Shown here: positions 1 to 11,966 of the stretch, in pieces
Layout: each line of letters starts with the position of its first letter
Numbering within the stretch: the stretch's first letter is position 1
Assembly: GCA_022566355.1 (NCBI GenBank)
Contig: JADFJB010000099.1
Location: forward strand, 1 to 11,966
Reading direction: 5' to 3'
Source: a candidate division KSB1 bacterium
GTDB lineage: Bacteria > Zhuqueibacterota > JdFR-76 > DREG01
DNA: 11,966 bases
Made by a program: the position numbers and the translations under genes
The notes under the pieces: generated by a model
Told to the model about the DNA's origin: nothing
Database searches by the model: none
Seen by the model: only the letters and a program-made list of their open reading frames with translations

Positions 1-3000
1 ATGCGCTCCCAGATCTTAATTATAAAAATGATGGTAAATCGACAGAGCGAATATCCCAATTAATTCTTACATTGGCAAATAGAAGTAGAGAAAATAAAGC
101 TAGTCGAAACTTATGGCCTACGACAGAATTGAACAAAGATAAAATAAGGTCAAAAAGGAACAGCAATACTAAGCTTAGAATTTTAGAAGTCATCCATAGT
201 TTCCTTCCTTTCAAATCTGGTGGAACAGAACTGTATACTTTTAACCTATCAAAAGAATTACAAAAATTGGGACACGATATTTTGGTTCTTTTTCCATTTC
301 TTGCAGAGGATAAAAAGGAATTCTCTTTTAACCATTCTCGTTACAACGGTATCCCAATTGTCATGTTCAATTTGTTTGAAAGTTATAAGTCGAAACGATC
401 TGAATTCCTAAATTTGGAATACGATCAGCCTTTTCGTGATTTCTTGAAGAATAATAAATTTGATATTGTTCATTTTCAGCATCTGTATGGGTTATCAGTG
501 AACTGGCTTTCCATTGCAAAAGAAAGTGGAGCCAAAGTTGTTCTTAAACTTGATGATTTCTATTTTTACTGCAAACAAATTCATTTAATTCAGTCAGAAG
601 GATCTTACTGTTCCGGGCCCGAATCACTTAACAAATGTATTCAATGCTGTTATCCTGCCCAAAAAGATAAAAAGTCTGAAAATTTAATAAGTGAATTTGA
701 ATATCGGAATGAAACCTTAAAATCGGCATTTTCCATACCTGATTTGGTTCATACACCTTCTCGTTTTGCTAAAGAATCTCATCAAAAAAATGGATTTGTG
801 AATTCAAATTTTAAAGTGATTCCCACCGGGATTTTACCATTTAAAGTGCTGACAAAGACCAAAGCTATCGATGAAAAAATAAGAATTGCATATGTCGGAG
901 CGATTGATCGCCGCAAAGGTGTCTTGGATTTCATCAGAGCGATAGAACATTTTATTGATCAGCCTGATATCAGCCAGAACGAAGCCAAATTAAAGTTTAA
1001 AATCTATGGCAATCATGACGATGATGATTTGTCTGAATTTGTCTTCGCTAAAGTGGCCGAGTTGGATTGTCTGGAGTACGAAGGAACATTTACACAAGAT
1101 GACCGATCTAAAATCTTCTCTCAAATAGATGTAATGGCCATCCCCTCCATAGGCGAAAATTATCCATTCATCATCAGGGAAGCACTCTATGCGAACATCC
1201 CGGTGATTGCAACAAACATATCGGGAGTTCCGGAGATCATTGCCAACGGCGTTAATGGATTCCTATTTCCTCCGGGGGATTTTAAATCTCTAGCAGCACT
1301 ATTTGAGAAGATTACAAAACAGCCTGATTTGCTAAATGAACTTGATCTTACCTCTTTTCCCGCAAAAACCATTTCTGAAGAAGCGATTGAATTGATAAAA
1401 GAATTCAAAAATCTCCCTGAATCAAAATCAGAGCAGCCATTGGTCTCAATTGTAATTGTCACCTATAACTCAGAAGCCACGATACGAAAGTGTCTTCAAA
1501 GCATTCATTTAAATACGACGATCTCATATGAGATCATTCTAATTGATAATGCTTCGAATAAAAATGTCAAAGAAGTTATCAACAATAACCTGGAATTTCG
1601 AATTCCTATCACAATCATACAAAATGACGAGAATGCAGGATTTTCCAAGGCTTCAAATCAAGGTATTCAGCAAGCAAGAGGAAAATATGTTGTTCTATTG
1701 AATCCAGATACTGCCGTTTTGCAAGGATGGGCTGAGCAACTGATAGCTCATTTTAACAATGAAGTCGGCGCTGTTGGACCCATTTCAAACTATGCTGCCG
1801 GGTTACAAAATGTGAATGAGCATATCGATAAAAAATTGCATGGCAATTTCTCTGTTGAGGAATTAAGCGCAAGAATTTACCAGACAAACAATGGTAAATC
1901 TATCGAAACTAAACTGCTAATCGGGTTTTGCATGATGATTAAGAAAGAGACGATCGATAAAGTTGGCTTATTGGATGAAAACTTGATTCTTGGCAATGAT
2001 GATCTTGATTATTCACTTCGTTTGAGAGACGCTGGTTATAAACTATTAATCGCGACAGATACATTTATTTACCATGAAGGACAATCAAGCTTTGCGATGT
2101 TAAAATCCGCAGAAAAGCAGCAAATGATGCAGATGTCACTGGATCGATTTTATGCAAAACTTGAAACCAAATATGGTGAAGGAAAAGTTCCTTCTTCGAT
2201 TCAGCTTTGGGGCTTAGACATCTTGGGCATCCCTTCTAAATTTACAGAAGGATTGAAACCTCTACTAAAAGTACCAAAATCACTGTCAATAAAAAAACGA
2301 ATTGCCCTCATTTATGACAATGCTGCACGTCCAGATACAACTGGTGAATATTGTAAGCGAGCGTTGTGTCAAATTTGCCAGACCGACCATTTTCTTCCGA
2401 GCCAAATAGCAAGTTTAACGCCTGGGAGTTATGATCTTTTTCTGTTTATCGATGATGGTCTTAACTATGCGATCCCTTATTATCTCAGGCCAAACGCCTG
2501 GTGGGTGATTGATACTCACCTTCAATATAATGTTGATTTGCAAAAGTCCAGAAAATTTGATTTTGTTTTCGCAGCTCAAAAAGACGGGGCCGCAAAATTA
2601 AAGCGTGATGGAATTAACAACGTGAAATGGCTTCCCCTGGCTGCGGATCCAGAAATTCACAAAAAACATCAAGTAAATAAGGAATATGATATTTCATTTA
2701 TTGGTCATTACGCCCATGGGCCAAGGAATAAACTTTTACAAATTATTAAATCAAACTTTGATAATGTTTACATCGGGCAACAATTTTTTGAGGAGATGGC
2801 CAAAACATACAGCGCTTCTAAAATTATTTTTAATAGAAGTTTAAAAAATGATATCAACATGCGTGTTTTTGAAGCAATGTCGACGGGAAGCTTGCTTGTT
2901 ACAAACGATGTTTCAGACAATGGCATACTAGAGATTTTCCAGGACGAACAAGTACTCGTACAATATTCAAGTGAAGCTGAACTTCTTAAAAAACTAAAGT

Positions 3001-4241
3001 ACTATCTCAAAGAAGAAAAGAAAAGAGAGTTCATTGCAGAGAAAGGGCGAAAAAACATATTAGCTAACCATACTTATACACATCGAATGAAAGTATTGTT
3101 AAGTGAAGTTTTTGAAAATGACGATACTGTTATGAGACCAACTCCAGACGAATTGGTTTCAATTATTTTGGTTACTTTTAACGGATTAGAAGCAACAAAA
3201 AACTGTATCGAAAGCATTCACAAGTATACAAATATTTCCTATGAATTAATTATTGTAGATAACGGATCAACGGATGGAACTTTGGAATATATAGACTCCC
3301 TTTCAAATGCGAAGACTATTCATAATCAGAAAAATCTTGGTTTTTCCGCTGCAAACAATATTGGCATAAAAAATAGTAAGGGTGATTACATTTTGCTTCT
3401 TAATAACGATACCATTGTTACTGAAGGTTGGTTAAATGGGTTGCTGCGCGCAATAAACCTTGCTCCGGAAGTTGGCTTAGCCGGTCCAAAAACGAATTGG
3501 GTATTTTCTTCTTCACAGATAGTTGATAGTCCAAAATATAAATCGCAAGCTGAATTGCAAACCTATGCAAAAGGTTTCACTAATCAACATAAAAACGAGT
3601 ATTTATTGACGAATGAAATATTAGTCGGTTTTTGTTTATTGATTAAAAAAGAGGTTATTGACAAAATCGGACTTTTGGATGAAAGATTCGGAAACGGCAA
3701 TTTCGAAGATGATGACTATTGTTTACGAGCTCGTTTAGCCGGATATGAAAAAATTGTTGCTGGCGATGTTTTTATTCATCACGAAGGTAACTTTTCATTT
3801 AAAGCAAACAATATCGATTACCAGGATCAAATGGAGCAAAATTTATTATTATTTAAAGAAAAATGGAAAGATGAAATAGAATTTCGTGGAAGAAAATATT
3901 TCCTGAAAAAGGATTTGGAAGCATTAGCGCAAACAGAAAATATTCGTGGTGAAAATGCATTTGAAAAAAATCGATTAGAAAATGCAAAGGAGCATTTCGA
4001 AAAAGCTTTAGAATGGGACCCGGAATATGTTGTAGCTCTGAATAATCTCGGTGTGCTAAATTGGCAATTAGGGAACACTTCAGACGCGGCGGATTACTTT
4101 TTAAATGCTTTGGAAAAAGATTCCAAATATCTGGATGCCATAGAAAACCTTATGCAAATAATTCCTAATTTGAACATGAACGATGAAGTGATGCAAAAAT
4201 TTACTGAAATTTGTAAAGACAGCAATTTGGTAGTGAGTTAA
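1..4241 (+). CDS. Giant multi-domain glycosyltransferase (GT4 - GT2 - CgeB-like GT - GT2 - TPR), 5' end outside window
   Basis: The frame is open from base 3 to the TAA at 4239-4241. The first possible start, TTG at 72, has no Shine-Dalgarno and the frame reads through it (LILTLANRS), so the true start probably lies upstream. Residues are counted from that TTG. Residues 34-448 are a GT4 (GT-B) domain with SGGTE near its start, a cysteine cluster at 167-193 and an EX7E motif, ENYPFIIRE, with glutamates at 362 and 370. Residues 456-700 are a GT2 domain with VTYNSE, NPDT (D546), GNDD (641-644) and HEG at 668. Residues 740-1015 resemble the CgeB-like GT-B family (MRVFEAMSTG near 930). Residues 1027-1270 are a second GT2 with NNDT (1111-1114), FEDDD (1211-1215) and HHEG. 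Residues 1295-1375 form about two TPR repeats. No membrane segment is evident, so it is probably cytosolic. It likely builds a surface or protein-linked glycan; donor and acceptor sugars cannot be read. The architecture is confident, the substrate unknown. Confidence 0.9.
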   Translation, partial: ALPDLNYKNDGKSTERISQLILTLANRSRENKASRNLWPTTELNKDKIRSKRNSNTKLRILEVIHSFLPFKSGGTELYTFNLSKELQKLGHDILVLFPFLAEDKKEFSFNHSRYNGIPIVMFNLFESYKSKRSEFLNLEYDQPFRDFLKNNKFDIVHFQHLYGLSVNWLSIAKESGAKVVLKLDDFYFYCKQIHLIQSEGSYCSGPESLNKCIQCCYPAQKDKKSENLISEFEYRNETLKSAFSIPDLVHTPSRFAKESHQKNGFVNSNFKVIPTGILPFKVLTKTKAIDEKIRIAYVGAIDRRKGVLDFIRAIEHFIDQPDISQNEAKLKFKIYGNHDDDDLSEFVFAKVAELDCLEYEGTFTQDDRSKIFSQIDVMAIPSIGENYPFIIREALYANIPVIATNISGVPEIIANGVNGFLFPPGDFKSLAALFEKITKQPDLLNELDLTSFPAKTISEEAIELIKEFKNLPESKSEQPLVSIVIVTYNSEATIRKCLQSIHLNTTISYEIILIDNASNKNVKEVINNNLEFRIPITIIQNDENAGFSKASNQGIQQARGKYVVLLNPDTAVLQGWAEQLIAHFNNEVGAVGPISNYAAGLQNVNEHIDKKLHGNFSVEELSARIYQTNNGKSIETKLLIGFCMMIKKETIDKVGLLDENLILGNDDLDYSLRLRDAGYKLLIATDTFIYHEGQSSFAMLKSAEKQQMMQMSLDRFYAKLETKYGEGKVPSSIQLWGLDILGIPSKFTEGLKPLLKVPKSLSIKKRIALIYDNAARPDTTGEYCKRALCQICQTDHFLPSQIASLTPGSYDLFLFIDDGLNYAIPYYLRPNAWWVIDTHLQYNVDLQKSRKFDFVFAAQKDGAAKLKRDGINNVKWLPLAADPEIHKKHQVNKEYDISFIGHYAHGPRNKLLQIIKSNFDNVYIGQQFFEEMAKTYSASKIIFNRSLKNDINMRVFEAMSTGSLLVTNDVSDNGILEIFQDEQVLVQYSSEAELLKKLKYYLKEEKKREFIAEKGRKNILANHTYTHRMKVLLSEVFENDDTVMRPTPDELVSIILVTFNGLEATKNCIESIHKYTNISYELIIVDNGSTDGTLEYIDSLSNAKTIHNQKNLGFSAANNIGIKNSKGDYILLLNNDTIVTEGWLNGLLRAINLAPEVGLAGPKTNWVFSSSQIVDSPKYKSQAELQTYAKGFTNQHKNEYLLTNEILVGFCLLIKKEVIDKIGLLDERFGNGNFEDDDYCLRARLAGYEKIVAGDVFIHHEGNFSFKANNIDYQDQMEQNLLLFKEKWKDEIEFRGRKYFLKKDLEALAQTENIRGENAFEKNRLENAKEHFEKALEWDPEYVVALNNLGVLNWQLGNTSDAADYFLNALEKDSKYLDAIENLMQIIPNLNMNDEVMQKFTEICKDSNLVVS

Positions 4242-4288
4242 CCTGATTTGAAAATCAATATCTGAATGAATCTAAATATGGTGATTTA

Positions 4289-7144
4289 ATGAACGATAAT
4301 AGAACCATTGCTTTCAATTTGAAAAACTTGTTGCCTCTTTCTGAAAAGGATCTGCAAATCTATAGGGAGTTTTGTATTGTTGTGATGGTTCTCATTCCGA
4401 TATTAGGTGGGATTTACGAGAATACAAATCCGGGTGCAAAGAATTTTGTAACTGACAGAATTATTTTGGCTCTTGTCGGTTTATCTGTTGTCGGGCTCTC
4501 GTATAAAATTCAATTGTTAAAAATATGGATGCGACAAATTGTCTATTTTTTTAATTTTACAGTTACCTTGTGGTCAATCCTTGTAGCATCCGTTAACCAC
4601 TTCTCCGTTGAATATGTTTTCAGCCTGGTTATAGTTATTTTGGCAAGCAGTGTTAGCTTTACATCTGTCAATCAACTTTCGTGGTATTTCCTTTTGACTA
4701 TTTCTTCTTCAGCATTAGCCGGTTGGTATGATCCTAATCCGTATGTTAATCGAAACATTTTTATTGGTTCTATTGCCACAGTAGGGCTGATTTCGTTTTT
4801 AGCGTTGCGATCCAAATTGCTCATTCAAAAAACCCTGGAAATCAGTGAAGAATTAATGAAAACGATATTTAATGAGTCTGCTGATGCAATGTTCCTGGTC
4901 GATAGGGAAAAACAGGATACGGTTGATTGTAATGTTAGCGCAGAAAAAATGTTCAAGGCAAAAAACAAAGATAGTTTGGTTGGAATTGATTTGAGAAATC
5001 TTGCTGAACTAGCATTTGAAATAGATACATTGGAAAAACTGCAAAGCGAAATTCTTAAAAATGGCAAGTGGGAGAAGGAACTAGAATTTAAAACTTTAGC
5101 AGGAACAGGGTTTTGGGGTGATATGGTAATTAAGGATATTGAAATTTCCGATAAAACTTATCATTTAGCCCGAATTACCGATGTCACGGAAAAGAAAAAA
5201 GCTCATGAAGAAGTGGCCTGGTTAGCAACTTTTCCTGAAAATGACCCTGTCTCGATTATTGAATTAAGTCCGGAAGGTAAAGTTACCTATGTTAATCCGA
5301 TGACTTCTTCCTCTTTCCCTGACCTTGAGAAAAAAGAATTGGCACATCCTATTTTGTGTGATATTCAACCCTTTGTGAGAGATTTGAAGTCAAGAGGCAG
5401 CTCCAAATCATTTAGAGAAGTTCAATATAATCAATCTCATTACCATCAAAACATTTCTCTTGTGCCGAATCAAAACTTGATAAGAATTTCTAATATTGAC
5501 ATCACGGCTAGAATTCGAGCGGAACAAGAAATCATAGCGAGTGAATTAAAAAACCAGGCTTTGATTAATGCAATTCCTGATTTGATGTTTCAGATCGACA
5601 AACAAGGTGTGGTTTTATCTTACAAACCTGCGAAGAAAACACAAAATTCAAGAAATGTAATCGAAAAAAATATTAGTGAGATCTTCCCAAATGATGTTGC
5701 CGAACAAATAAGAACCAGCATTCATAACGCATTTCAAACTAAAGAAATACAGGTTTTTGATTTTCAAATTTCACAAGGCAATAAATTAAGGGATTATGAA
5801 GCGAGGATTGTTGTTAGTAGTTATTCTGAAGTTGTGGCAATTGTGCGAGATATTACCAATCGTAAGGAATTGGATCGCAGCTTAATAGCTGCTCGAGAAG
5901 CTGCTTTGGAAACATCCCGACTTAAATCAGAATTTGTAGCCAATATTAGCCATGAACTTCGGACACCACTGAATGGAATTATGGGCTTTAGTGATTTATT
6001 ATCTGATTCCGAACTCGACGACGAGCAAAAACATTTCATTCAAGTAATTCGCAGTTCAAGCCAATCACTTTTGAAATTGATTAATGATCTTCTCGATTTT
6101 TCAAAAATAGAATCAGGGAAATTGGAATTAGAATTAATAGAATTTAACATAAGAGATTGCACCTGTAATTCCATCAAAACACTTTCAACCCTGGCCTATG
6201 AGAAAGGACTGGATTTGAATATAGAATTTGATGTCAATGTTCCAAAACAATTATCCGGTGACCCGGGACGGCTTCGCCAAATCCTGGTAAATTTAGTTTC
6301 CAATTCAATTAAATTTACGAACAAAGGTAAAATATCAATAACTGCTTCACAATTGTCTCGATCTGAAAATCGGGTTGAGATTCGTTTCACTATCGAGGAT
6401 TCTGGTATAGGTATTCCAAAAGAAAAGCTAAATATGATTTTTTATTCGTTTGCGCAAGCGGATGGATCTTCTACCAGAGAATTCGGTGGAACAGGCCTGG
6501 GGCTTGCTTTAACCAAACAGCTGGTAGAATTAATGACTGGCAAAATCTGGGTTGAAAGCAAGGTTGGGGTTGGTAGTAAATTCCATTTCAAAGTGAAATT
6601 TGATATTGCTCATATCAAAAGCATACCGGTGGATAAGCACTCTAAGCTAAATTTAAAAAATAAAAAAGTTCTTGTTGTTGATAGTGTACCACAAAGTAGA
6701 AAATCATTTAAAGATATTTTTACGAAGTGGAATATGAAATCGATTATTGTGGGAAGCGGACAAAAAGCTATACTTGAAATTGAGAAGTCAAGGACTCAAA
6801 AGGAAGGTTTCTCATACATACTCATTGATGCAAATATTTCCGAAATTGATGGATTTACACTGGCAAGCCAGATTTCAAAAACTGAAGATTTAAACCACTC
6901 CATGATTATGATTCTATCTTCAACAGGTAAAAGGGGAGATGCCGCCAGGTGCAGAGAAATTGGTATATCAGCTTATTTGACAAAACCAATTAAGCCTGAA
7001 CAATTACTTGAAACATTCGCAGCGATCGAAAACAATCGGAATTCGAACCAAAAAGAAATCCAACTGGTTACACGCCATTCCATTCGAGAAAATAAACAAA
7101 ATATGAATCACATTAAAGAAGAAAGCCTCAAACAGGAATATTAA
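4289..7144 (+). CDS. Membrane hybrid sensor histidine kinase (6 TM, three PAS-like, HisKA, HATPase_c, one receiver)
   Basis: This 951-residue protein starts at ATG 4289 behind a weak GGTGA, 47 bp after the giant glycosyltransferase gene. Residues 24-174 hold six hydrophobic helices with short loops, an integral-membrane sensor I cannot assign to a named family. Three PAS-like regions follow: about 185-308, 311-420 (degenerate, opening WLATFPENDP) and 425-540. The HisKA box ISHELRTPLNG puts the phospho-accepting histidine at 555. The ATP-binding domain shows an N box (LVSNSIKF, about 669-676), DSGIGI (D704) and GGTGLGL. The C-terminal receiver (about 795-910) keeps the phospho-acceptor D847, S877 and K899, but its acidic pocket reads VVDSV (D798, S799) where most receivers have two acidic residues. 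Expected role: autophosphorylation at H555 and transfer to D847. The tail contains LVTRHSIRE (926-934), which in related kinases introduces a second receiver, but the protein ends 17 residues later. Neither a response regulator nor an HPt protein is visible in the window. Confidence 0.93.
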   Translation: MNDNRTIAFNLKNLLPLSEKDLQIYREFCIVVMVLIPILGGIYENTNPGAKNFVTDRIILALVGLSVVGLSYKIQLLKIWMRQIVYFFNFTVTLWSILVASVNHFSVEYVFSLVIVILASSVSFTSVNQLSWYFLLTISSSALAGWYDPNPYVNRNIFIGSIATVGLISFLALRSKLLIQKTLEISEELMKTIFNESADAMFLVDREKQDTVDCNVSAEKMFKAKNKDSLVGIDLRNLAELAFEIDTLEKLQSEILKNGKWEKELEFKTLAGTGFWGDMVIKDIEISDKTYHLARITDVTEKKKAHEEVAWLATFPENDPVSIIELSPEGKVTYVNPMTSSSFPDLEKKELAHPILCDIQPFVRDLKSRGSSKSFREVQYNQSHYHQNISLVPNQNLIRISNIDITARIRAEQEIIASELKNQALINAIPDLMFQIDKQGVVLSYKPAKKTQNSRNVIEKNISEIFPNDVAEQIRTSIHNAFQTKEIQVFDFQISQGNKLRDYEARIVVSSYSEVVAIVRDITNRKELDRSLIAAREAALETSRLKSEFVANISHELRTPLNGIMGFSDLLSDSELDDEQKHFIQVIRSSSQSLLKLINDLLDFSKIESGKLELELIEFNIRDCTCNSIKTLSTLAYEKGLDLNIEFDVNVPKQLSGDPGRLRQILVNLVSNSIKFTNKGKISITASQLSRSENRVEIRFTIEDSGIGIPKEKLNMIFYSFAQADGSSTREFGGTGLGLALTKQLVELMTGKIWVESKVGVGSKFHFKVKFDIAHIKSIPVDKHSKLNLKNKKVLVVDSVPQSRKSFKDIFTKWNMKSIIVGSGQKAILEIEKSRTQKEGFSYILIDANISEIDGFTLASQISKTEDLNHSMIMILSSTGKRGDAARCREIGISAYLTKPIKPEQLLETFAAIENNRNSNQKEIQLVTRHSIRENKQNMNHIKEESLKQEY

Positions 7145-7214
7145 GATTATTGAATTCTTAACCAACCTTATTTAACCTGGATAATTCACAAACTTCATAA
7201 CTGATTTATAAAAC
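7145..7214. other. Short AT-rich spacer after the kinase gene
   Basis: This is the first part of the 475 bp gene-free gap between the kinase and the GT2-TPR gene. It is AT-rich. I see no intrinsic terminator, coding frame or trace of a lost receiver domain in it; the hairpins begin just downstream, in the repeat element. Confidence 0.4.
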
Positions 7215-7218
7215 TGTC

Positions 7219-7253
7219 ATTCCCGTCCCGCCTGGGGCGGGATTATCGGGAAT
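7219..7253. repeat. GC-rich hairpin in the intergenic repeat
   Basis: ATTCCCG (7219-7225) and TCCCGCC (7226-7232) pair with GGCGGGA (7236-7242) and CGGGAAT (7247-7253). The loop is three bases (TGG), with a four-base bulge, TTAT, on the right arm. The following bases are not a convincing T-run, so I call it a repeat hairpin rather than a terminator, although it may also slow polymerase downstream of the kinase gene. Confidence 0.7.
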
Positions 7254-7370
7254 CTTGTTACACAGGCCGCACATAGATCCCCGATAAAAATCAGACTGTC
7301 CGAGAACCGGTCTTGTCACTCCTGCAAGCTTTAATCAAAAGTTCATTTTGTGCTTAACTAATGCAAATAG

Positions 7371-7395
7371 ACCCCCGATTAAAGCGCTCGGGGGT
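7371..7395. repeat. Second GC-rich hairpin in the intergenic repeat
   Basis: ACCCCCGA (7371-7378) and TCGGGGGT (7388-7395) form a perfect 8 bp stem around a nine-base loop. No T-run follows on either strand. Its left arm is one copy of the direct repeat whose other copy is at 7274-7285, where the matching right arm is missing. Confidence 0.7.
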
Positions 7396-7442
7396 GACAG
7401 TTATGGGGTTCTCGGATAGCCTGAAAGCATTATGGAATGACA

Positions 7443-7619
7443 CTCTACAACAGCCTGCACGACGAGATAACATAGTTGGAAATTTTAAGCTTAAAATCAT
7501 AATTCATGAATAATGCAGGTTAATCATCCAATTTTTGACAAGAAGTATCTGAGATTATCCTTGGCCGTTATTTTGAGAAGTTCTCGATAATTTTCCAAAA
7601 CTTTAGAAAGACGTTTAAT
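7443..7619. promoter_or_regulatory. Palindrome-rich leader of the GT2-TPR gene, possible operator region
   Basis: No coding frame is seen. The stretch carries a perfect 16 bp palindrome, ATTTTAAGCTTAAAAT (7482-7497), a 10 bp palindrome, ATTCATGAAT (7502-7511), and CCTGCA (7454-7459) pairing with TGCAGG (7514-7519) around both. A TTGACA box lies at 7535-7540 but has no good -10 box at the right distance. A weak AGAAAG (7605-7610) is the only ribosome-binding candidate for the next gene. The promoter probably lies here, but its position is not resolved. Confidence 0.35.
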
Positions 7620-9578
7620 ATGAGTATCAAAAAGAAGAAGAAAAAAAATCAAATAAATAAACAGTCAAAAATTGAAGCTCCTCTCATAAGCGTATGTATG
7701 ATTGTAAAAAATGAAGAAAAAAATCTTGGCAAATGTCTTGAACTTGCCAATGGTTTTGCCGATGAAATTATTGTTGTCGATACCGGTTCCGTAGATAAAA
7801 CAACATCGATTGCTAAGAAGCATGGTGTACGGCTTTTTCAATTCCAATGGATTGATGATTATTCGGCGGCAAGAAATGTATCATTAAAACATGCTAGGGG
7901 TAAGTGGATTATCTGGCTTGATGCTGATGACCGGATTTATCCTGACCAGCATCCTCTTATCCGCAAGTTAGCACAAGAAAAACCGGATAGAGCATTTTAT
8001 TTCAAATTAGTAAACGATGGCTTTGAAAAGTCCCAATGCCTTCAATTAAGGATGTTCCCAAATTTTAAAGAAATCCGATTTGAGAGACCGGTTCATGAAC
8101 AAGTTGCGACCAGTATCAATCGTTTAGGATTACCTATCGTGAATTCGAAGGTTATCCTTTACCACACCGGTTACAGTAGTTTGGAAGTTGTTAAAGCGAA
8201 AAAGGAACGCTATATTGGTATGATGTCCAAATGGCTTGAAAGCCAACCAGGAGATAACGCAATTCGATATCAATATGCGCTTGCACTTCACACTTTAAAA
8301 CAAAACGAAAAAGCAAAGGCAGAGTTTGAATTTCTATTGAACCACTCGCCGGATTTTAAGAAAACCGATCCGATGTATTATTTTTCATCGATATTGCTTG
8401 GTAGAACATATCTTGAATTAAATGATTTTGATAGCGCACTATCTGCACTTAAAACAGCTGAAGAAATTAATCCCAATACTGCATTTCTAAGAATATCCAT
8501 TGCAGAAGTGTATGTTTATTCAGGTAATTATGATAAGGCTGTTCAATATCTAAATGAAACAGATATCAATCCTGAGGAAGAAATGTCTTCTTTTCCCTTA
8601 GATTATACAATCTTAAAGTATGGAAAATTGGTATTATTGGGAAAGAGCAAGTTGGAACTAGGCTATCCGGAATCTGCAAATTCGTATCTTAATGAAGCTT
8701 TAGAATTAGCTCCCCATAAACCGGATGCTTATAAGTTTCTTGCTGAAGTGAATAGAAACACCGGCAATTATAAAGAAGTCGTTCACTATTACACATTAGC
8801 TAAAGAAAAAGATCCTGAATATTTTTACTATGATTTTAAAATTGGGAATTTATTCTTAGCGTTGGGCTGGCTATCCAAATCAAAAGGGTATTTCAAACAA
8901 TCTTTAGAAAAATTACCTAACCACCCACCCATCTTATACAATTTAGCAATTATTGAGCAGTGTAGTGGCAGGTATGATAACGCACTTTCTTATTTTAGTA
9001 CATTACAAAAACTGGAAATTTGGAACGATAATTTCAGTCCTTTTTTTATCTTATGCTTAATGGATAAGGGAGATCTTTTATCTATTTCACAGAAATATTC
9101 TTTGTATTTAAATGGCAAAACCAAAGTATGGATGAGTTATTTATTAGATTTGTATTTTGAAAAAACGGAATCGTTCTGGACAAAGTTTAATGGTAGTCAT
9201 CCGGAATTACAAGAAAAAAGCATTAATGAAGTTGTTGTTCATATCACAAAAGAAATAGAACAGTCAATAAATAACAAGGATTTTGTGTTGTCAGAACTAC
9301 AATTGCGTGTGGCTTTATTCCTTGATCAGAAAGATACTTTGAGGTATTTATTGCAGTTGGCTGATATTCAGATGAAAAACAATAGATTATTTCAGTCAAT
9401 AAATACATTTGAACAGGGAATAAATTTTACAACAAACGATCAACAGGTAATAGCAATATTAGATAAAATGAGTCGATGTTACTTGCAACTAGGTGTCGAT
9501 GAAGCACATCAGATGTGCCTAAAACAAATCGAGCAAGTTAAAAATAATTCAATACAACCTCTTCTTTCCAGTCTTTAA
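7620..9578 (+). CDS. GT2 glycosyltransferase fused to a long TPR array
   Basis: The protein has 652 residues. A lysine-rich leader (about residues 3-9) precedes a GT2 (GT-A fold) domain running to about residue 185. Family marks are VCMIVKNEE, VVDTGSVDKT, DDYSAARN (79-86), the metal-binding WLDADD with aspartates at 101, 103 and 104, and RPVHEQV with H159-E160, a pattern typical of the WaaE/SunS-like branch. From about 210 to 640 the chain is helical, with repeated TPR-like pairs such as NYDKAVQYLNE, SYLNEALELAPHKPDAYKFLAEV and SKSKGYFKQSLEKLPNHPPILYNLA. TPRs in such enzymes usually hold protein acceptors or partners, so a protein or peptide acceptor is plausible. It ends 198 bp before flagellin, which makes flagellin glycosylation an attractive but unproven role. 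No signal peptide or membrane segment is visible, so it is likely cytosolic. ATG 7620 is preceded only by a weak AGAAAG. The donor sugar is unknown. Confidence 0.9.
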   Translation: MSIKKKKKKNQINKQSKIEAPLISVCMIVKNEEKNLGKCLELANGFADEIIVVDTGSVDKTTSIAKKHGVRLFQFQWIDDYSAARNVSLKHARGKWIIWLDADDRIYPDQHPLIRKLAQEKPDRAFYFKLVNDGFEKSQCLQLRMFPNFKEIRFERPVHEQVATSINRLGLPIVNSKVILYHTGYSSLEVVKAKKERYIGMMSKWLESQPGDNAIRYQYALALHTLKQNEKAKAEFEFLLNHSPDFKKTDPMYYFSSILLGRTYLELNDFDSALSALKTAEEINPNTAFLRISIAEVYVYSGNYDKAVQYLNETDINPEEEMSSFPLDYTILKYGKLVLLGKSKLELGYPESANSYLNEALELAPHKPDAYKFLAEVNRNTGNYKEVVHYYTLAKEKDPEYFYYDFKIGNLFLALGWLSKSKGYFKQSLEKLPNHPPILYNLAIIEQCSGRYDNALSYFSTLQKLEIWNDNFSPFFILCLMDKGDLLSISQKYSLYLNGKTKVWMSYLLDLYFEKTESFWTKFNGSHPELQEKSINEVVVHITKEIEQSINNKDFVLSELQLRVALFLDQKDTLRYLLQLADIQMKNNRLFQSINTFEQGINFTTNDQQVIAILDKMSRCYLQLGVDEAHQMCLKQIEQVKNNSIQPLLSSL

Positions 9579-9638: not shown

Positions 9639-9665
9639 TAAAGTAATTTCATAATTTGACGATAA
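9639..9665 (+). promoter_or_regulatory. Sigma-28 (FliA) type promoter of flagellin
   Basis: TAAAGTAA (9639-9646), an 11 bp spacer and GACGATAA (9658-9665) match the enterobacterial sigma-28 consensus TAAAGTTT-N11-GCCGATAA with only three mismatches and the exact spacing. Transcription should begin near 9672, giving a leader of roughly 105 nt before the flagellin ATG. Placement in front of a flagellin gene makes chance unlikely. Confidence 0.85.
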
Positions 9666-9685
9666 TTTAATAAGTTCAAAAAATT

Positions 9686-9699
9686 CCGGCTAATGCCGG
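9686..9699 (+). promoter_or_regulatory. Small 5' hairpin in the flagellin leader
   Basis: CCGGC (9686-9690) and GCCGG (9695-9699) form a 5 bp stem closed by TAAT, about 14 nt from the predicted 5' end of the flagellin mRNA. It may protect the transcript end; no sequence motif for a regulator is seen in the loop. Confidence 0.5.
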
Positions 9700-9733
9700 C
9701 AGCTAGAATTAGATGAACAAAGTAAACTGACTT

Positions 9734-9753
9734 AATATGCAAGGATGCATATT
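9734..9753 (+). promoter_or_regulatory. Leader hairpin with CsrA-type motif in its loop
   Basis: AATATGCA (9734-9741) and TGCATATT (9746-9753) form a perfect 8 bp stem with the tetraloop AGGA. Read across the loop, ATGCAAGGATGC matches the CsrA consensus RUACARGGAUGU at 10 of 12 positions, with the GGA displayed in the loop as CsrA prefers. It lies about 23 nt upstream of a second CsrA-type site over the flagellin ribosome binding site. Confidence 0.7.
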
Positions 9754-9761
9754 TTCTAAAA

Positions 9762-9771
9762 ACACGGAGGT
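9762..9771 (+). promoter_or_regulatory. Flagellin Shine-Dalgarno overlapping a second CsrA-type site
   Basis: ACACGGAGGT contains the strong Shine-Dalgarno GGAGG (9766-9770), six bases before ATG 9777, and fits the CsrA core ACANGGANGU exactly. A protein bound here would block ribosome loading, as CsrA does on Bacillus hag mRNA. The Shine-Dalgarno call is firm; CsrA binding is inferred from the motif. Confidence 0.75.
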
Positions 9772-9776
9772 ATAAC

Positions 9777-10901
9777 ATGGGTTTAAGAATCTATAATAAC
9801 ATCGCTGCGCTTAACGCAGGTCGTAACTTGGAGATAAACGATGCGCTGTTATCAAAATCATTAGAGCGCCTGTCGTCAGGATTGCGCATTAACCGTGCGG
9901 CTGACGATGCTGCAGGACTGGGTATTTCGCAAAATATGCGCGCCCAGATTTCCGGTTTGCGTATGGGAAGTCGAAATGCCTCTCAGGCCGTAAATCTGGT
10001 GCAGACCGCTGAAGGTGCGATGGTTGAGATTCATAATATGTTAGAACGGATGCGTGAACTTGCTGTTCAAGCATCTTCTGACAGTGTAACAGACACAGAT
10101 CGTGGATACCTGGATTCAGAATATAACCAATTAAGTTCTGAAATTGATCGTATTGCTGATGCCACAAAGTATAATGGTGTAGCACTGGTCAATGGTAGTT
10201 ATAGTGGCAATACAGTAAGTTTTGCGTCTGCTCAAACAACTGCTGATGCAGATCTTGGTGTTCAGAAGATTGAATTGAATGGCGCTGCCGCAGGAGTCTT
10301 CACCATAACAGATGCAAGCGGAACATCAATTCAAATGACTGATGGCACAATTACTCAATCTGTTACAATAGCAGCTGATCCTGGTGAAGGTGAAACCATA
10401 ACTGTGAACTTCTCACAATTGGGAATCACGCTTACCCTGAACGAAGCCTACGATGATCAGGATTTGGAAGGCACGATTATCACTGTGGATGCAGGTTCGG
10501 GTGGGTCATTCCAGATTGGCGCGGATAACGATGCTAACAACCGGATTACCTTTAGTATTGGTAACTTGAAAGCAACAGGCAGCAATTTAGGATTGAGCGG
10601 TACAGGTGTCTCTACCAGGTCTGCCGCACAATCAGCGCTGGATTCATTAGACACCGCAATCGGCGCCGTTAATGGCGAGCGTGCTACATTAGGTGCGGTT
10701 CAGAACAGGCTCGGATACACAATTGCCAGTTCAAATAACACTGCAGAAAACCTGCAAGCATCTGAATCTCAAATTAGAGATGCAGACTTTGCACTGGAAG
10801 TATCTTTGTTCACAAGAAATCAAGTTCTTGTTCAAGCAGGTACTGCAATGTTGGCACAGGCAAACAGTACGTCACAAAACGTACTATCCCTGTTACGATA
10901 A
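9777..10901 (+). CDS. fliC: Flagellin (filament subunit)
   Basis: The 374-residue protein is exported by the flagellar type III system and polymerises into the filament. The conserved N-terminal D0/D1 region (1 to about 145) reads MGLRIYNNIAALNA, LERLSSGLRINRAADDAAG, LVQTAEGAM and IADATKYNG. The C-terminal D1/D0 region (about 290-374) reads RATLGAVQNRL, SQIRDADFA and ends QNVLSLLR. The middle (about 148-285) is variable, rich in Thr, Ala, Asp and Gly, and includes a beta-rich stretch around GSFQIGADNDANNRITF; this is where surface-exposed domains and O-glycosylation sites would lie. The protein contains no cysteine or tryptophan. The start is fixed by GGAGG six bases upstream. The gene is visibly richer in GC and in preferred codons such as CGT and CTG than its neighbours, as expected for very high expression. 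It has its own sigma-28 promoter, a two-site CsrA-type leader and a strong terminator. Confidence 0.98.
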   Translation: MGLRIYNNIAALNAGRNLEINDALLSKSLERLSSGLRINRAADDAAGLGISQNMRAQISGLRMGSRNASQAVNLVQTAEGAMVEIHNMLERMRELAVQASSDSVTDTDRGYLDSEYNQLSSEIDRIADATKYNGVALVNGSYSGNTVSFASAQTTADADLGVQKIELNGAAAGVFTITDASGTSIQMTDGTITQSVTIAADPGEGETITVNFSQLGITLTLNEAYDDQDLEGTIITVDAGSGGSFQIGADNDANNRITFSIGNLKATGSNLGLSGTGVSTRSAAQSALDSLDTAIGAVNGERATLGAVQNRLGYTIASSNNTAENLQASESQIRDADFALEVSLFTRNQVLVQAGTAMLAQANSTSQNVLSLLR

Positions 10902-10963: not shown

Positions 10964-10987
10964 AAAGAATAATAAAGGGTGGTCAAA

Positions 10988-11359
10988 ATGAGTGAAGTCA
11001 GTTCAGTTGGACAAGTTGCAGCAGAATACAACCCATATATTGGTTCTGTTGTTACTGAAGAATCCAATATCGCTCATTCTCAAGAACAAGCACAAAAGAA
11101 AATTTTCGCCGAAAAAATCGATGATGGTAATGTTGATAAGAATGCTGTTAAATTGCAAACTGAGGAGCTCAATCAGGTTGTAGATTTGTTTAATCACGAG
11201 CTCAGGTTTGAAATTGACGATCGCTTGGGCAAAGTGATTGTCAAAATAATAGATAAAGAAACTGGTGAAACCATACGACAAATTCCCCCGGAAGATATGC
11301 TGAATATAATGGCAAGAATAGATGAAGTTCTTGGAATGATGTTTGATGAAAGAGCGTAG
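10988..11359 (+). CDS. flaG: FlaG family flagellar protein
   Basis: This is a 123-residue protein. The C-terminal half carries the FlaG signature: FNHELRFEIDD, KVIVKIIDKETGETI, RQIPPEDML and a closing helix, IDEVLGMMF. The N-terminal half (about 1-50) is low-complexity, polar and poorly conserved, as is usual in the family. FlaG proteins affect filament length and flagellin behaviour; the exact mechanism is not settled. I start at ATG 10988 because AAAGGGTGG (10974-10982) is well spaced for it; the in-frame GTG at 10979 lies within that Shine-Dalgarno. It follows the flagellin terminator by 24 nt with no room for a clear promoter, and precedes fliD by 44 nt, the common order flagellin-flaG-fliD. 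Expression is probably by read-through from flagellin. Length is normal for the family. Confidence 0.92.
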   Translation: MSEVSSVGQVAAEYNPYIGSVVTEESNIAHSQEQAQKKIFAEKIDDGNVDKNAVKLQTEELNQVVDLFNHELRFEIDDRLGKVIVKIIDKETGETIRQIPPEDMLNIMARIDEVLGMMFDERA

Positions 11360-11403: not shown

Positions 11404-11966
11404 ATGCCCGGTAGCTTTTCAATTGGTGGACTGGCATCCGGTTTAGATACACAAAGTATACTTTCAAGTCTTATTTCTTTGGAAAGGCGTCCGATCATTT
11501 TATTAAATGGCCGGAAAGATGATTTTATCAAAAGGCAAGACGCCTGGAAACAAGTAAATTCCAAGCTGCAATCGCTAAAATCAGTAATCGATGATATACG
11601 CAAAAAAAGCGACTTTAATTTATATATAACAGAAACAGACGATACCGCAACTAAAGAATCTTTATCTTTAACCGCTACTTCCAGCGCATCAGCGGGGAGC
11701 CATTCTGTTATCATTATGGCTTTAGCGAGTGCTCAGAAATATGGTTCATCTGCTTTTACAAGTAAAACCACAGCCTTGAATCTTTCTGGTGAATTTTTAG
11801 TCAATCAAAAAGCAGTTTCAATAAGCTCAACAGATGACCTTGTTGATATTGTTGATAAAATCAACAATGCAAATGCAAAAGCTACTGCTTCGATTATCCA
11901 GGTAGATTCGACTGATTTTCGCTTGATTATTAACGGCGACAATGAAGGCGTTGATTCTCTTGATCT
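11404..11966 (+). CDS. fliD: Flagellar filament cap FliD (HAP2), 3' end outside window
   Basis: The frame is open from ATG 11404 to the right edge, giving 187 residues of a protein usually 400-700 long. The N-terminus, MPGSFSIGGLASGLDTQS, followed by an ILSSLISLERRPI helix, is the hallmark of FliD. Residues about 33-70 form the amphipathic, coiled-coil D0/D1 helix (RQDAWKQVNSKLQSLKSVI). Residues about 93-115 (SASAGSHSVIIMALASAQ) are the conserved strand that opens the D1/D2 head. Residues about 140-180 (DDLVDIVDKINNANAKATASI) match the Flagellin-hook-IN type motif found in this family. FliD is exported unfolded and forms the oligomeric cap that folds flagellin at the filament tip. No promoter is seen in the 44 nt gap after flaG, so co-transcription with flaG is likely. 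Confidence 0.95.
   Translation, partial: MPGSFSIGGLASGLDTQSILSSLISLERRPIILLNGRKDDFIKRQDAWKQVNSKLQSLKSVIDDIRKKSDFNLYITETDDTATKESLSLTATSSASAGSHSVIIMALASAQKYGSSAFTSKTTALNLSGEFLVNQKAVSISSTDDLVDIVDKINNANAKATASIIQVDSTDFRLIINGDNEGVDSLD

Follow-up and report, generated by a model that had tools for sequence, protein, structure and literature searches.

Two predicted CsrA sites in the flagellin leader of a candidate division KSB1 bacterium and their likely role in a FliW-dependent switch

Flagellin is preceded, in the genome of a candidate division KSB1 bacterium, by a leader in which two GGA triplets stand in contexts resembling CsrA-binding sites. The locus raises the question of whether this leader belongs to a CsrA-FliW-flagellin homeostasis loop, as a first-pass annotation suggested, or whether the resemblance has another cause. 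The question was addressed with the sequence of the locus (a window of 11,966 nucleotides, the whole stretch of DNA analysed), the rest of the 4.6-Mb genome, and a search for flagellin, FliW and CsrA in 82 genomes of the same phylum.

The flagellin leader and its predicted CsrA sites

The proposed regulated gene encodes a flagellin of 374 aa with Pfam Flagellin_N and Flagellin_C domains (9777–10901, forward strand, as are flaG, fliD and the promoter and leader features below). It is followed by flaG (10979–11359; Pfam FlaG) and by fliD (11404–11964; Pfam FliD_N), which runs off the window. Upstream of flagellin, positions 3–9578 encode large glycosyltransferase/TPR proteins, of which that at 7620–9578 combines Pfam Glycos_transf_2 and TPR; these proteins may glycosylate the flagellin. 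A predicted sigma-28 promoter was read from the sequence at 9639–9665 as TAAA-N15-GACGATAA, which fits the consensus for sigma-28. Its TAAAG and CGATAAT are kept in four order-level leaders (this one and those of three relatives), and FliA/sigma-28 is encoded in the genome (275.5 bits, above the NCBIfam cut-off). The position of this promoter gives a predicted mRNA leader of ~105 nt (9672–9776). No Rfam family matches the leader at gathering score, either within the window or among five relatives, and the sub-threshold matches score far under their gathering scores.

Predicted CsrA site 1 (9734–9753, AATATGC-AAGGAU-GCATATT) contains a perfect 8-bp inverted repeat, with AATATGCA at 9734–9741 and TGCATATT at 9746–9753 separated by AGGA at 9742–9745. 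The first GGA (9743–9745) had been placed in the loop of a perfect 8-bp hairpin. The repeat is indeed perfect; the loop, to judge from its sequence and that of its relatives, is better described as a hexaloop of the CANGGANG type than as an AGGA tetraloop. This hexaloop, AAGGAU (9741–9746), is closed by GC/GC, with C9740-G9747 as the closing pair. The hairpin is present in the minimum-energy fold of the leader, and in the ensemble fold the closing C-G pair forms, and the GGA is unpaired, each with P = 1.0. In dinucleotide shuffles of the leader, the GCANGGANGC string recurs with p ~0.001, and an NNGGAN loop on a stem of at least 5 bp with p ~0.0025. These single-genome values are modest given that many features were scanned, and they leave some room for a chance hairpin in an AT-rich leader.

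Predicted site 2 (9762–9771) reads ACACGGAGGU (ACACGGAGGT) and overlaps the Shine-Dalgarno sequence, as had been proposed. Its GGA occupies 9766–9768, so that 23 nt separate the GGA starts at 9743 and 9766. No other GGA triplet lies between the ATG (9777) and the predicted start of transcription (~9672), and the earlier statement that the leader has just two, about 23 nt apart, is borne out by reading it. That there are only two is nevertheless a local accident; the leaders of relatives have more.

Some features of the locus would also fit a hairpin with a different job, such as a weak terminator, an mRNA stabiliser or an operator palindrome in the DNA, with the GGA incidental and site 2 a mere Shine-Dalgarno. 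UUUUCU lies directly 3' of the stem, the DNA is perfectly palindromic outside the loop, and any GGAGG Shine-Dalgarno partly resembles the CsrA consensus. The terminator reading was rejected on inspection, as the stem is AT-rich and relatives have no U-run. The remaining versions of this explanation are taken up with the relatives below.

Conservation and specificity of the two-site module

Flagellin leaders of 18 genomes from nine families of the phylum carry GC-ANGGAN-GC followed by (A/G)CANGGAGGU over the Shine-Dalgarno, and all 18 genomes encode both FliW and CsrA. In these leaders GC-ANGGAN-GC lies 30–57 nt upstream of the ATG, mostly inside a hairpin, although in three of them (L006, L017 and L018) the site 1 hairpin is not the favoured fold. 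The spacing from hairpin to Shine-Dalgarno site is 19–33 nt in 17 leaders and 45 nt in one, and (A/G)CANGGAGGU is found in every hairpin-bearing leader (18/18). When the 24-nt hairpin windows were aligned, only G8, C9, A10, G12, G13, A14, G16 and C17 were invariant. The hairpin string also occurs in two leaders of other phyla, L035 (Epulopiscium, GGCATGGACGCT) and L039 (Armatimonadota, AGCAAGGATGCG). One genome (G072) has two flagellin genes, L048 and L052; the L052 leader is without the GGA hairpin and the hairpin of the other stands 45 nt from the Shine-Dalgarno site, a sequence difference that suggests the paralogues may be differently regulated.

The stem sequence turns over while pairing is largely retained. 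Across the 6-bp stem, 78.7% of cells pair, as compared with 65.2% in shuffles. Double-changed cells number 21, whereas the shuffles average 8.9 and none of 500 reaches 21; these counts are not independent events because the sequences are related. Double changes occur at four of the six stem pairs; the inner two pairs are invariant and therefore uninformative on covariation. Sliding the partner by 1–3 columns leaves 0–9 double-changed cells. Relatives thus retain both the GGA loop and a paired stem, with compensatory changes in the outer stem, which is what the first-pass annotation had proposed to look for.

Because it is conserved in relatives, the module is more than a chance hairpin: the shuffle probability of the hairpin string is at most 0.007 in each of the 18 leaders, to which covariation and the shared loop and stem can be added, and the chance explanation is now hardly credible. 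The same alignment bears on a hairpin with another job. Only the GC-A-GGA-GC positions are invariant, the U-run of the locus is absent from relatives, and the invariant loop is asymmetric, which speaks against an operator. Given also that the CANGGAGGU context is not found in a family without FliW (below), this explanation is very improbable, and the conserved unit is best read as a CsrA site.

Over the 82 genomes the double-site pattern has 42 matches as compared with 12 in a reversed control, and 17 of the 42 are flagellin leaders. Among the other 25, 14 loci were read besides the repeat in the genome under study; in no genome with CsrA does any of them show a convincing gene start. Within that genome, GCANGGANGC-N(2,32)-CANGGAGG matches twice, in the flagellin leader and in a gene-less A/C-rich repeat. 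Two candidate second targets were discarded: the repeat (L054), which is of low complexity and has no gene start, and a match in family f12 (L109), which has no open frame. L054 also holds a C-terminal 'NPFNPQTTIEYAIP' motif, which would suit the FCB group; nothing among the relatives or kinship groups points to a Bacillus. By these pattern matches flagellin looks like the outstanding double-site target, and single-site targets may exist besides.

The leader has a second conserved hairpin at its 5' end (9682–9710), for which three relatives (L004, L005 and L007) have (stem)GCU-UACCGGU-AGC(stem). Applied to the order-level leaders, four in number, RNAalifold predicts two hairpins and no more: the CsrA-type one and this one. 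Its three outer pairs vary with pairing mostly kept, which with four sequences is suggestive only. Elsewhere in the genome under study, the 5' element GGCTTACCGGTAGC with 2 mismatches has 20 matches versus 19 in the reversed control, and so no excess. FliW has been reported to bind the hag leader of B. subtilis (PMC6529632). It is conceivable, if rather unlikely, that the flagellin control region of this order comprises three conserved elements, with the 5' hairpin acting independently in regulation or stability, perhaps in contact with FliW. The 5' element is not described for hag or flaA.

FliW, CsrA and the families that differ

The genome encodes one copy each of csrA (G000:C4:65998-66150; PF02599, 82.5 bits; NCBIfam NF002469 over cut-off) and fliW (G000:C4:65488-65847; PF02623, 129.6 bits; NCBIfam NF009793 over cut-off). 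The gene order on contig 4 is flgK-flgL-fliW-csrA, with fliW and csrA adjoining; both genes had been anticipated, and they lie beside flgL. In the published switch, FliW contacts the extended C terminus of CsrA (PMC7652899). The CsrA encoded here is the long form of 79 aa, in which residues 2 to 73 align with the Geobacillus CsrA in the CsrA-FliW complex 5dmb, tail included, and the invariant positions L4 and R44 are present. The FliW matches the solved FliW structures 5dmb and 2aj7. Adjacent fliW-csrA pairs with long-tail CsrA were also seen in ~10 genomes without a detectable Flagellin_N protein or FlhA (families f16 and f22 and genome G014), several of which are near 100% complete; examples are L112 2917-3657 (G035), L113 2665-3569 (G062) and G024:C3:408956-409504.

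Two families depart from the common arrangement. Members of family f10 have CsrA without FliW; their CsrA is 65–70 aa with no C-terminal extension, and neither the GGA loop nor the CANGGAGGU context is present in their flagellin leaders. That FliW, the CsrA tail and the two sites are missing together links the sites to FliW; a FliW-dependent model predicts this pattern, though it comes from one clade. Family f12, one incomplete genome excepted, has both FliW and long CsrA; its flagellin leaders have no GGA hairpin, and UCANGGAGGAU lies over their Shine-Dalgarno. The presence of FliW and CsrA together consequently does not always call for the hairpin, and the leader sequences suggest that the FliW-CsrA pair can persist after loss or alteration of the upstream GGA site. 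Most f12 leaders (L010, L011, L012 and L044–L046) have a hairpin ~60–80 nt upstream of the ATG with ANGG(C/U)N as hexaloop and C-G as closing pair, a CsrA-like loop in which GGA has become GGC or GGU.

The f10 pattern also bears on the proposal that CsrA binds these sites mainly for its own titration or for polar placement of the mRNA, both reported for Campylobacter jejuni flaA, and not for FliW homeostasis. The architecture is closest to that of C. jejuni flaA, whose leader titrates CsrA (PMC4894983), and at the stringency used the module is specific to flagellin. The link of the sites to FliW seen in f10 speaks against the proposal, and the roles are compatible, C. jejuni having both. Titration or placement as the main function is improbable.

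The predicted switch and its known counterparts

It is very likely that the two leader sites allow CsrA to repress flagellin translation and that FliW relieves this repression. The loop that had been suggested from the leader now has the support of csrA and fliW, a long CsrA and leader conservation; CsrA binding, repression, and binding of FliW to CsrA and to flagellin we infer from B. subtilis and C. jejuni. One CsrA dimer would span the 23 nt from the GGA in the hexaloop (9743) to that in the Shine-Dalgarno (9766) and would block 30S binding to the flagellin mRNA. Hexaloops of the CANGGANG type are reported to be high-affinity CsrA/RsmE ligands, and the optimal spacing for one CsrA dimer is quoted as ~18 nt (PMC4894983). 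FliW would inactivate CsrA through its C-terminal extension. If export stalled, cytoplasmic flagellin would capture FliW, and the freed CsrA would repress; flagellin export would then release FliW and allow flagellin translation to resume. FliW antagonism with flagellin as the FliW sink has been shown in B. subtilis (PMC6529632), and CsrA binding and FliW antagonism have been shown in C. jejuni (PMC4894983).

The Bacillus/Campylobacter switch thus very probably operates in this unrelated phylum too. Flagellin-leader control, experimentally known in Bacillota and Campylobacterota, is extended to another phylum by sequence-level tests. GC-ANGGAN-GC followed by CANGGAGGU provides a compact signature by which the target mRNA can be identified from sequence, and the f10 absences constitute a natural experiment on decay of the switch.

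The leader had been likened to that of B. subtilis hag. The two-site layout supports this: by the coordinates quoted in PMC8523840, the hag sites (BS1, A51-A55; BS2, C75-G82) are ~24 nt apart with one over the Shine-Dalgarno, a likeness in published site coordinates. Shared with hag are a sigma-28 type flagellin promoter and a fliW-csrA pair (PMC6529632, PMC7652899); function is demonstrated there, whereas here we infer it. The fliC leader of Clostridioides difficile has TGACAAGGATGT and CTAAGGAGGG sites, and FliW antagonises CsrA in that species, but the sites are predicted only and differ in sequence (PMC8523840). C. jejuni flaA is a closer counterpart than the comparison with hag alone suggests. 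Its leader is 45 nt, as compared with ~105 nt here, and belongs to another phylum; the leader studied here has an extra 5' hairpin, and its site 2 is not in a stable hairpin in the leader's own fold. In both, two sites of the ANGGA hexaloop type lie at nearly the same distance (21 nt in flaA, 23 nt here) and the second covers the ribosome site; compensatory changes accompany the conservation of the sites, and csrA and fliW are present (PMC4894983).
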